The notes beneath the pieces are model-generated. The model was not told the origin of the DNA. It did not search any database and was given only the letters and a program-made list of their open reading frames with translations. A stretch of 64,000 nt of DNA from Nocardia tengchongensis (GTDB lineage Bacteria; Actinomycetota; Actinomycetes; Mycobacteriales; Mycobacteriaceae), in assembly GCF_018362975.1 (NCBI RefSeq), contig NZ_CP074371.1, positions 3,472,001 to 3,536,000 on the forward strand, read 5' to 3'. Every line of letters begins with the position of its first letter. Within the stretch, counting starts at the first letter, position 1. Shown in pieces: positions 43,114 to 63,682 of this stretch. The position numbers were made by a program, and so were the translations under genes.

Positions 43114-43704
43114 GTGCGCACGCATGGATGGTCCGGATCCGCTCCCGCCGATGACGCGGAAGCCGTCGAACGCATCGTGGCCGCCGCCCGGCGCGCCATC
43201 GATCGCTCCGGCGACGAGTTCAGCATCGCCGAGGTGGCCCGCGACCTCGGCGTCACCCGACAGACGGTGTACCGCTATTTCCCCAGCGCCGAAATACTTC
43301 TGACGGCGACGGCCATCGCGCAGACGGAGCATTTCCTGGATGTGCTGGCCGAGCGGCTCGGCGATATCGAGGATCCCGCGACCGCGGTGGTGGAGGGCAT
43401 CGCGTACACGCTGGAACAACTGCCGGAGGAGAAATACGTCGGCCTGTTGTTGCGACCGGGGCGAGCCAGCGCCTTCTCGGCGGGCGTAACCTCCGACACG
43501 GCAAAGTCTTTCGGCCGTTCACTGCTGGAGCGCTTCTCGGTGGATTGGGCTGCGGCCGGGATCTCCGATTCCGCCCTGGACGAACTCGTCGAGCACATGC
43601 TGCGCATTGTGCAGTCGTTTGTCATCGATCCGGGCCGGCCGCCGCGGCGGGGCGCGGAACTGCGTGACTATCTCTCGACGTGGGTCGCGCCCGCACTGGC
43701 ATAG
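43114..43704 (+). CDS. TetR-family transcriptional regulator
   Basis: 196 residues from GTG 43114. DNA-binding domain: AVERIVAAARRAIDRSGDEF, SIAEVARDLGVTRQTVYRYF. The C-terminal ligand domain carries LLLRPGRASAFSAGVTSDTA and ELVEHMLRIVQSFVIDPG. Likely represses itself and the divergent F420-dependent gene. Ends at a strong terminator. Confidence 0.9.
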   Translation: MRTHGWSGSAPADDAEAVERIVAAARRAIDRSGDEFSIAEVARDLGVTRQTVYRYFPSAEILLTATAIAQTEHFLDVLAERLGDIEDPATAVVEGIAYTLEQLPEEKYVGLLLRPGRASAFSAGVTSDTAKSFGRSLLERFSVDWAAAGISDSALDELVEHMLRIVQSFVIDPGRPPRRGAELRDYLSTWVAPALA

Positions 43705-43706
43705 GG

Positions 43707-43737
43707 AAACCCCGGGGCCTAGCCTGCCCCGGGGTTT
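43707..43737. terminator. Bidirectional terminator between TetR gene and Y-RNA-like genes
   Basis: Twelve-base arms AAACCCCGGGGC and GCCCCGGGGTTT around a seven-base loop. Serves the TetR gene and could also end the minus-strand RNAs. Confidence 0.85.
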
Positions 43738-43758
43738 CGGTGGCCGCCCAATTGCGGC

Positions 43759-43897
43759 ACGCCGACACTTTTAAGAACGGGTTCAGTCTCAAGTTAACGT
43801 GACGCTCTGCGATTGAGCTACAGCCCATCGGTGGCTGGGCCGGCAGGAGTTGAACCTGCAACCTTCACGCTGACAATCCGTTCCTTCGATTCGGCGT
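43759..43897 (-). ncRNA. tRNA-mimicking RNA 2, permuted (YrlA-type Y RNA candidate)
   Basis: On the minus strand the tRNA 3' half comes first: T stem GCAGG/CCTGC with loop TTCAACT (43843-43859), acceptor strand CGGCCCA (43836-43842), an eight-base loop, then acceptor strand TGGGCTG (43821-43827), TA, and D arm GCTC-AATCGCA-GAGC. Acceptor strands pair fully (one G-T). In place of the anticodon arm, the RNA ends pair in nested order: CGTGA/TCACG, TCAG/CTGA, GAACGG/CCGTTC, ACGCCGA/TCGGCGT. The D loop lacks the usual GG. A normal tRNA cannot form in this order. Confidence 0.75.
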
Positions 43898-43899
43898 TC

Positions 43900-44068
43900 G
43901 GCGGCGAATACTGAAACTGGAGCGATAGTGTGAGTTTGAAGGCGCGGTGCCTCTGCCGGTTGGGCTATCCCGCCAGGTATGGCGGGAGGAGGATTCGAAC
44001 CTCCACTGGGCCGCTGTGTGCCTGTCACAGTTGAACTTCTGTTTCAGCTTGCGCTCTTGCGCACCGCC
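43900..44068 (-). ncRNA. tRNA-mimicking RNA 1, permuted (YrlA-type Y RNA candidate)
   Basis: Starts 23 bases after the stop of the 243-aa protein gene. T stem GGAGG/CCTCC with loop TTCGAAT (43988-44004), acceptor TCCCGCC (43981-43987), connecting loop ATACCT, acceptor GGCGGGA (43968-43974; seven perfect pairs), TA, D arm GCC/GGC with GG in the loop. The ends form a long broken stem: CCGC/GCGG, GCCT/AGGC, TCACA/TGTGA, GTTTCAG/CTGAAAC, CCGCC/GGCGG, all nested. A small GCGC-AAGA-GCGC hairpin bulges from the 5' strand. This layout is that of bacterial YrlA Y RNAs, whose head mimics tRNA. Confidence 0.8.
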
Positions 44069-44091
44069 GACTGTAGCCGCTGACGCGGGCG

Positions 44092-44823
44092 TCAGCCAAA
44101 CAAATATCCGAAGACGTTCTCGCCCAGCTTGCGCTGGGTGACTTCGGCGTTGTTGGCCTCCTCACGCGCGAATTTCACTGCCTGCTGGAGCTTTTCGACG
44201 CGCTCGGTGAGCTCGTTGACGCGCTTGGCGGGCAGTGCGCCGGAGAACCGGATGGTCCGCCAGTACCCGACCACCACGTCCTCGTGATACACCTCGACCT
44301 GAGCCGGATGCTTGTCCGTCGCTTCGGCTTTCACGTGGTTGCGCGGAATCTTCTTGGTGCGCACCGTCTGTACCGGCTCGGTGGCGTAGCAGTCCGCGGC
44401 CGCGTCGTATTCCCACGACTCGGCGGCATCCAACACCGGCAGTTTGCGCACGAAGGTGTGCAGGTCGGTGAGCTGCTTCTCCAGGAACAGCAGGTAGGTG
44501 ATGGGCGCGTTCTCCACCAGGGTGCGGCCGTCGACCACCACGTCGGCGCTGGCGGCGCAGTTCGCCCAGTCCTTGGTGGCGACCACGTCGAACAGTTTGG
44601 TCAGGATTTCCGCCGTGGAGTGCAGGACTTCCTCGGATCTCACCTGGACGCGCGTCGACTCGGGCGGCAGCTGCTCGCCCTCCTCGTCCTTGGGACGGTA
44701 GGTGCGCGAAATACCGCTCAGCAGCGGGTTTTTGGCCAGTTTGTGATGGGCCTCGGTGAGCTCGGAGAAGGTACGGGACTTGATCCCTTTCTCGACGGCG
44801 ACAATCTGATTCAAACGTGTCAT
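44092..44823 (-). CDS. Conserved protein linked to the Y-RNA-like genes; function unknown
   Basis: 243 residues from ATG 44823 (MTRLNQIVAVEKGIKSRTFS). Highly structured, intracellular, no membrane segment: LTEAHHKLAKNPLLSGISRT, YRPKDEEGEQLPPESTRVQV, TKDWANCAASADVVVDGRTL, TYLLFLEKQLTDLHTFVRKL and a basic block VRTKKIPRNHVKAEATDKHP, then a coiled-coil tail and GYLFG end. I believe close relatives are widespread in actinobacteria and annotated as unknown (possibly DUF7873). It is not a TROVE/Ro protein. The basic conserved middle and immediate linkage to two tRNA-like RNAs suggest an RNA-binding partner; this is inference. Confidence 0.75.
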   Translation of the reverse strand: MTRLNQIVAVEKGIKSRTFSELTEAHHKLAKNPLLSGISRTYRPKDEEGEQLPPESTRVQVRSEEVLHSTAEILTKLFDVVATKDWANCAASADVVVDGRTLVENAPITYLLFLEKQLTDLHTFVRKLPVLDAAESWEYDAAADCYATEPVQTVRTKKIPRNHVKAEATDKHPAQVEVYHEDVVVGYWRTIRFSGALPAKRVNELTERVEKLQQAVKFAREEANNAEVTQRKLGENVFGYLFG

Positions 44824-62991: not shown

Positions 62992-63420
<429 letters not shown>

Positions 63421-63682
63421 CGCCCTGAATCTTCTGCCCCTGCGCTTCGCTCCGGGGCGGGTTCGGGGCGCTGGAGGTCTCGTTCTTCCCTCCCTCCGCT
63501 CCTCCGCTACGCTCCTCCGCTCCACTCAGTCCAGAACGAGACGCGCCCCGAACCTCTGGGTGAACCCGGTGGTCTATGTTGCGGGGTTGTTATCTCGGCG
63601 GCGAGGCGCGTGGCGCGGTGCCATCATGGAAGGCACACCGTCGGATTTCCGATGGCGCGGAAATCGTTTCGCGGAGCGAACA
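63421..63682 (+). repeat. Large imperfect hairpin downstream of rnpB
   Basis: GGTTCGGGGCGC (63460-63471) and GTCTCGTTCT (63477-63486) pair with AGAACGAGAC (63533-63542) and GCGCCCCGAACC (63543-63554): 22 pairs interrupted by a five-base bulge. The loop holds repeats of CTCCGCT. It could end rnpB transcription or be a small mobile repeat. No gene in this stretch. Confidence 0.7.

Follow-up and report, generated by a model that had tools for sequence, protein, structure and literature searches.

A two-armed RNA with circularly permuted tRNA-like tips accompanies DUF7873 genes in bacteria and phages, probably as one RNA–protein cassette

The window analysed here, a stretch of 64,000 nucleotides (nt) from Nocardia tengchongensis (contig NZ_CP074371.1, positions 3,472,001 to 3,536,000), contains on its minus strand a structured RNA element situated directly downstream of a gene for a DUF7873 protein. 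The element carries two units, A and B, in which the parts of a transfer RNA (tRNA) are arranged in permuted order. The structure of the RNA is conserved by covariation and the RNA accompanies DUF7873 across phyla and in phages; in the 60 genomes tested, the full-length RNA was seen only with DUF7873. The gene and the RNA probably form one cassette for a tRNA-mimicking RNA–protein particle, in which a design like that of the Y RNAs is combined with another protein. The features are as follows:

44092–44823, minus strand: DUF7873 (PF25283) gene, 243 amino acids, directly preceding the RNA on its strand; proposed partner of the RNA.
43703–44062, minus strand: whole structured RNA element, about 360 nt with approximate ends, predicted from sequence (A3 alignment of 40 loci, RNAalifold, pair counts).
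43911–44047, minus strand: arm A, with basal helices 44039–44047 with 43911–43919 and 44025–44031 with 43927–43933.
43949–44004, minus strand: tRNA-like tip A, comprising T arm, acceptor strands, 6-base loop and D arm.
44004–43988, minus strand: T arm of unit A, stem 5/5 base pairs (bp), loop TTCGAAT.
43987–43981 with 43974–43968, minus strand: acceptor of unit A, 7/7 bp, 6-base loop.
43965–43949, minus strand: D arm of unit A.
43920–44056, minus strand: possible pseudoknot, GAGCG 44052–44056 with CGCTC 43920–43924, crossing the basal helix of arm A.
43743–43905, minus strand: arm B, with helices 43900–43905 with 43743–43748, 43891–43897 with 43759–43765 and 43875–43883 with 43775–43783.
43804–43859, minus strand: tRNA-like tip B, comprising T arm, acceptor strands, 8-base loop and D arm.
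43859–43843, minus strand: T arm of unit B, stem 5/5 bp, loop TTCAACT.
43842–43836 with 43827–43821, minus strand: acceptor of unit B, 7/7 bp, 8-base loop beginning GCCA.
43818–43804, minus strand: D arm of unit B, stem 4/4 bp.
43706–43738, minus strand: 3′ hairpin, 13 bp, loop AGGCTAG.

Within 43759–44068, each unit runs from the T arm and the 3′ strand of the acceptor through a short loop to the 5′ strand of the acceptor and the D arm, which is the permuted order of a tRNA. Two tandem units of this kind had been read there in an initial annotation, and the complete pairing of the T stems (5/5) and acceptors (7/7) bears this out; those coordinates are right as far as they go, but do not take in the outermost arm B helix (43743–43748 with 43900–43905) or the 3′ hairpin. 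ARAGORN called neither a tRNA nor a transfer-messenger RNA (tmRNA) within the 64-kb window, as had been anticipated for ordinary tRNA finders. Across related loci, U8 is preserved in 114/115 tips A and 112/115 tips B. The GG of the D loop is found in 114/115 and 95/115 tips, respectively, figures that say little because the scan favoured GG; the letters of the T loop were required by the scan, so their conservation says equally little. The triplet CCA lies one base past the 3′ strand of the acceptor in 44/111 tips A and 38/109 tips B, against 1.7 expected for each under equal base use, and is absent from the window's own tip A. Such a CCA hints at descent from tRNA, or at a tRNA enzyme acting at that spot.

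The two units are predicted to be the arms of a single conserved element that also has outer helices of its own, as well as a possible pseudoknot and another hairpin. The region 43703–44075 (minus) folds at −166.7 kcal/mol (z −5.33), and 0/100 shuffles were equally low. Of 176 regions, 115 showed both tips, spaced 139–199 nt apart (the script permitted 110–220 nt), and 113 of these rows were reduced to 57 by quality and redundancy filtering. Alignment A3 holds 40 of these 57, most of the 17 rows left out having long acceptor loops and one running off its contig, and A4 holds 38 of the 40. RNAalifold predicted 51 pairs on A3, 44 of them with compensatory change. A manual structure of 81 pairs is paired in 86.3% of cells, compared with 37.5 to 44.5% when slid, a control that favours the structure because it was partly read off the same alignment. 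Since rows were picked by pairing of the T, acceptor and D stems, there is a bias in the tip helices. For the eight helices beyond the tips, 78.0% of cells are paired and 43/50 pairs are changed on both sides, and their covariation of 0.402 exceeds that of shuffled (0.194; 0/500 reach it) and slid (at most 0.154) controls. The earlier suggestion that structure rather than bases is conserved is upheld, and both units are predicted tRNA mimics in permuted order that keep their structure rather than their letters, like YrlA.

Among the individual helices, the three of arm B, outermost first, are paired in 78.1%, 93.6% and 84.7% of cells, with two-sided changes at 22/22 pairs. The two basal helices of arm A are paired in 72.2% and 75.4% of cells, with two-sided changes at 5/9 and 3/6 pairs; the possible pseudoknot reaches 88.6%, with two-sided changes at 5/5 pairs. 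A hairpin with a GGNYA loop was the top hairpin in 85/110 loci (31/49 viral) versus 13/1100 shuffles, and the 3′ hairpin may double as a terminator. The product may be one RNA containing both arms or two separate RNAs.

The association of the RNA with DUF7873 was assessed with R1, a covariance model of arm B built from 38 training rows. R1 matches the window, itself a training row, at 43743–43887 with 102.5 bits. The loci compared were the best 80 of at least 567 genome relatives and the best 80 of 418 viral relatives of DUF7873, so that close relatives of the window are favoured. R1 reached at least 84 bits in 73/80 genome loci, every match lying downstream of DUF7873 on the same strand, and at least 58 bits in 68/80 viral loci, where the match in L259 is on the opposite strand. 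The genome loci missed were L134, L143 (40.6 bits only), L146–L149 and L152. As 16 genome and 19 viral loci had trained R1, the unseen loci were also counted alone, giving 57/64 and 49/61, respectively. In loci chosen by the DUF7873 hidden Markov model (HMM) alone, R1 was found beside the gene in 37/38, some of which may be close kin of training rows; these 38 come from 42 HMM loci, the window's own copy, L286, L288 and L319 having been left out. Thirty-six of the 37 matches span the full model, each with at least 61.6 bits, and L293 is matched over positions 4–113 (54.1 bits); in the single miss, L318, DUF7873 is present as fragments only.

R1 was also run on whole genomes. Of 40 relatives, eleven have DUF7873, counting G009 with its match of just 31 residues; R1 matches at full length in ten of the eleven, the other (G021) having a partial match beside the gene (positions 4–113, 54.1 bits). 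The remaining 29 relatives, without DUF7873, have no full-length match; partial matches scoring 29.3 to 56.7 bits occur in 14, the top one being the YrlA-like RNA of a genome that bears a TROVE gene. Among 20 further, hand-picked genomes, all 12 with DUF7873 have full-length R1 beside the gene, and the eight without it have no match at E 1e-4. When the 60 genomes are pooled, full-length R1 is present in 22/23 with DUF7873 versus 0/37 without.

When the 700 nt following DUF7873 were scanned for permuted units, one or more turned up in 69/80 genome loci (two in 56) and in 70/80 viral loci (two in 39), five viral loci having less than 700 nt there. In the genome and viral controls, respectively, units were found in 1/80 and 0/80 on the opposite strand, in 0/80 and 4/80 in the 700 nt upstream, and in 0/80 and 3/80 further downstream. 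DUF7873 itself is a large family, with 6858 relatives among 8000 candidates scored and at least 120 listed. Searches guided by it revealed permuted units downstream of the gene in Nocardia and Streptomyces-like genomes, IMG/VR contigs and annotated phages. The named genome loci comprise many Actinomycetota, several Chloroflexota, and one contig each from Deinococcales, Acidobacteria, Polyangiaceae and uncultured Armatimonadetes; R1 scores at least 88.5 bits in all four of the last, each of these phyla resting on a single metagenome-derived contig. In Herpetosiphon and one Chloroflexi metagenome-assembled genome (L146–L149, L152), DUF7873 is present and no R1 match at E 1e-4 lies in the fetched flanks.

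DUF7873 occurs in 73 phage records. Two units each are present in Arthrobacter phage Racecar, Gordonia phage Phendrix, Rhodococcus phage NiceHouse, Pseudanabaena phage Pam2 and Klebsiella phage KpLz-2_45, and a single unit each in Gordonia phage Ziko, Vibrio phage D472, and Rhizobium phages RHph_Y65 and RHph_Y1_11; Microcoleus phage My-WqHQDG has a weak unit approximately 2 kb off. Annotated tRNA genes are near DUF7873 in 7/10 phage regions read, and ARAGORN finds at least one tRNA in 32/80 viral loci and three or more in 28/80. Some phage pairs of DUF7873 and RNA sit inside tRNA arrays.

The initial annotation had assigned the units to the YrlA type of Y RNA, and had proposed a Y-RNA covariance model as a check. 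YrlA (RF02553) is indeed the best Rfam match, with both units below its gathering score of 69 (unit B 32.2 bits, E 6.7e-5; unit A 19.3 bits, E 0.37), a threshold that the TROVE-linked RNAs of the genus likewise miss (best 51 bits). No family of Rfam 15 reached its threshold on the window element, other weak matches, selenocysteine tRNA included, being discarded as below threshold, and in ten related loci YrlA alone matches the element, again below threshold. Reportedly, Chen et al. in 2014 took being encoded near a Ro60/TROVE gene as the criterion for YrlA. No such gene lies near the element; the only TROVE match of the genome, at 6.09 Mb and about 2.6 Mb off, covers just profile positions 308–351. 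At that locus (L032:7774-9384, minus), the TROVE-like gene is cut to a VWA-like frame of 214 residues, and HNH-like and zinc-finger-like frames separate it from a distinct YrlA-like RNA (40.2 bits). The TROVE frames of relatives have 344–803 residues, with a permuted unit nearby in 12/14 fetched loci. These TROVE-linked YrlA-like RNAs (e.g. L032:9330-9384) have the same kind of tip as the element, but they lie beside a TROVE gene and match R1 over the core or part only (best 56.7 bits), with two weak spanning matches of 24.9 and 15.7 bits. The mimicry of tRNA in permuted order is shared with YrlA, whereas membership of the YrlA family was rejected on the Rfam score, the distance from TROVE and R1.

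TROVE and DUF7873 are also distributed differently. In 60 relatives, TROVE was matched in 14, DUF7873 in 17 and both in seven, leaving 10/17 DUF7873 genomes with no TROVE match. Nine of ten DUF7873 phages tested have no TROVE match, the exception being Rhizobium phage RHph_Y65 (MN988525.1), where DUF7873 (133444–134184), surrounded by tRNA genes, and a TROVE protein (about 139762–140505) are approximately 6 kb apart. The TROVE/Ro60 protein is a ring of helical repeats. The structure model of DUF7873 has four long helices and beta strands, with no TROVE chain in the 50 rows shown from the PDB, and hhalign gave a probability of 0.1% for a profile relation between DUF7873 and seven TROVE proteins of the genus.

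Several fetched matches to the YrlA model in relatives, at about 20–35 bits, proved to be ordinary tandem tRNAs by ARAGORN, and a match at 7.50 Mb in the window's own genome is tRNA-Gly with tRNA-Pro. Conversely, some permuted RNAs linked to TROVE or DUF7873 are taken by ARAGORN for tRNA-Trp, Arg, Leu or Phe (L001:2501-2573, L062:4981-5057, L063:5980-6054, L089:2268-2357 and L090:2264-2350). Genome annotations may thus carry false tRNAs on such RNAs.

With regard to known systems, YrlA binds Ro60 through its basal stem and PNPase through its tip. In permuted tRNA genes, the 3′ half of the tRNA precedes the 5′ half; by this description, the element resembles them in having the 3′ half first and matching acceptor strands, but it has no visible anticodon arm and its ends are joined by long conserved helices. 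The tmRNA is a stable tRNA-imitating RNA that works with a small protein, and the element would share the combination of a tRNA-imitating RNA with a small protein, the difference being that ARAGORN reports no tmRNA in the window. In the literature, YrlA is described as a large stem joined to a tRNA-like domain, tethering Rsr and PNPase (PMC8394870), and is offered as a possible competitive inhibitor of anticodon nuclease (PMC7790460); TROVE proteins are placed in a subset of jumbo phages and said to act in cells with a tRNA-like partner (PMC7824862), and a Listeria phage is suggested to have an Rsr protein and Y RNAs (PMC12282133). The element is like YrlA in its basal stem formed from the paired ends of the RNA (PMC8394870) and in its permuted tip of T arm, acceptor and D arm (Rfam alignment). 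Unlike YrlA, it neighbours DUF7873 rather than Ro60, and it has two tips at the spacing given above, a possible pseudoknot and a third hairpin.

Four other explanations were weighed against the proposed cassette. That the units are ordinary YrlA Y RNAs binding Ro60 (Rsr) and merely located away from its gene would agree with the shared kind of permuted tip, the top Rfam match, the TROVE fragment and adjoining YrlA-like RNA of the genome, and the TROVE matches in 7/17 DUF7873 genomes. Such a reading is nevertheless very unlikely, given scores of less than half the Rfam threshold, the many DUF7873 genomes (10/17) and tested phages (9/10) with no TROVE match, the restriction of TROVE-linked RNAs to part of R1, and the missing profile relation between DUF7873 and TROVE. 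Permuted tRNA genes, the products of which are cut and ligated into working tRNAs, had been the alternative in the initial annotation. The permuted halves and the excess of CCA after the acceptor in both tips speak for it, but long conserved helices, weakest at the anticodon-stem position, apparently occupy the place of the anticodon loop, and no tRNA is called in the window. Furthermore, in eight Streptomyces loci (L163, L173, L176, L177, L188, L192, L196 and L200, sorted by eye) arm A is without its T arm and acceptor and has kept the flanking strands of its basal stem, L173 also retaining a D-arm-like piece. The evidence fails to support this alternative, which is very improbable.

A protein–RNA toxin–antitoxin system, in which DUF7873 attacks tRNA and is restrained by the tRNA-like arms as decoys, would account for a cassette of protein and tRNA-like RNA that is patchy (17/60 relatives), has changing neighbours and occurs in phages. 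It is considered unlikely, because DUF7873 matched no nuclease family in Pfam or PADLOC and none appears in the structural rows shown, and some DUF7873 loci have no R1 match in the fetched flanks. Alternatively, the RNA could be a cis-acting 3′ control element, bound by DUF7873 or by tRNA enzymes and thereby governing how much DUF7873 messenger there is. Its position on the same strand, about 30 nt past the stop codon, and the terminator-like hairpin at its end are in keeping with such control; however, gene and RNA can be as much as about 500 nt apart (L141), the viral copy of L259 is found on the opposite strand, and one genome, G009 (L300 / L080), keeps both RNA units with DUF7873 down to a C-terminal match of 31 residues, making this explanation quite unlikely.

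The cassette of DUF7873 and RNA would give rise to a ribonucleoprotein particle with two arms, each a tRNA-shaped tip on a long basal stem, plus the third hairpin. DUF7873 would bind the basal stems, which can persist where tip A is lost, while the tips would mimic tRNA and tether or lure tRNA-binding enzymes. The enzymes engaged might be nucleases, enzymes of modification or repair or, by analogy with the role of YrlA for Ro60, exoribonucleases, and the placement in phage tRNA arrays would fit a role in protecting tRNAs, or competing with them, during infection. The predicted structure has some weaker places. The helices at the anticodon-stem position are the weakest, paired in 66.9% and, for helix 11 of arm B, just 49.3% of cells; further helices continue outward, with no anticodon loop apparent. 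In the basal helices of arm A, column pairs 37–199 and 52–185 are unpaired in 31/40 and 30/40 rows.

On balance, we favour a widespread, apparently undescribed class of ribonucleoproteins consisting of DUF7873 and a two-armed RNA with circularly permuted tRNA bodies, spread over at least six bacterial phyla and phages of actinobacteria, cyanobacteria and proteobacteria, which would engage tRNA-binding enzymes under stress or infection. Because the Rfam score and the distance from TROVE do not place it in YrlA and the partner shows no profile relation to Ro60, it would be a new variant of tRNA-mimicking ribonucleoprotein. No paper in the literature searched, which takes in a minority of subscription papers, uses the term DUF7873, and no description of such an RNA was found there; an earlier description is possible. 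If the reading is correct, permuted tRNA mimicry is not bound to Ro60 but also occurs together with an unrelated protein; there would be a functional lead for an uncharacterised protein family, and some false tRNA calls in genomes would be explained. Despite the size of the DUF7873 family, the RNA falls below every Rfam threshold. With its position in the tRNA arrays of phages, a part played in tRNA conflict could be tested in laboratory phages.

The protein encoded at 44092–44823 matches PF25283 over residues 1–242 with 394.4 bits (E 2.8e-118), far above the cut-off of 27, which places it in the family; its second Pfam match is SYCE1 only, below threshold. PADLOC assigned it no defence function, NCBIfam and PHROGs gave weak matches only, and a search of solved structures by sequence returned one match (E 0.21), taken as chance. 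The comparison with BFVD yielded nothing convincing, and the top PDB row for the structure model (VIA-align) is a protein of unknown function. One DUF7873 protein (P0009) is named ornithine carbamoyltransferase at its source, probably a misannotation.

The gap between the stop codon of DUF7873 and the aligned RNA element is approximately 30 nt. A 6-phosphogluconate dehydrogenase gene (gnd) lies upstream of DUF7873 and a gene for a TetR regulator downstream of the RNA, both on the other strand. In the 4-kb flanks of L121–L135, gnd is present in 6/15 and the TetR gene in 1/15, yet R1 matches in 14/15; thus, the neighbours vary while DUF7873 and the RNA stay together. Elsewhere in the window, at 62993–63422 on the plus strand, lies a bacterial class A RNase P RNA (263.7 bits).
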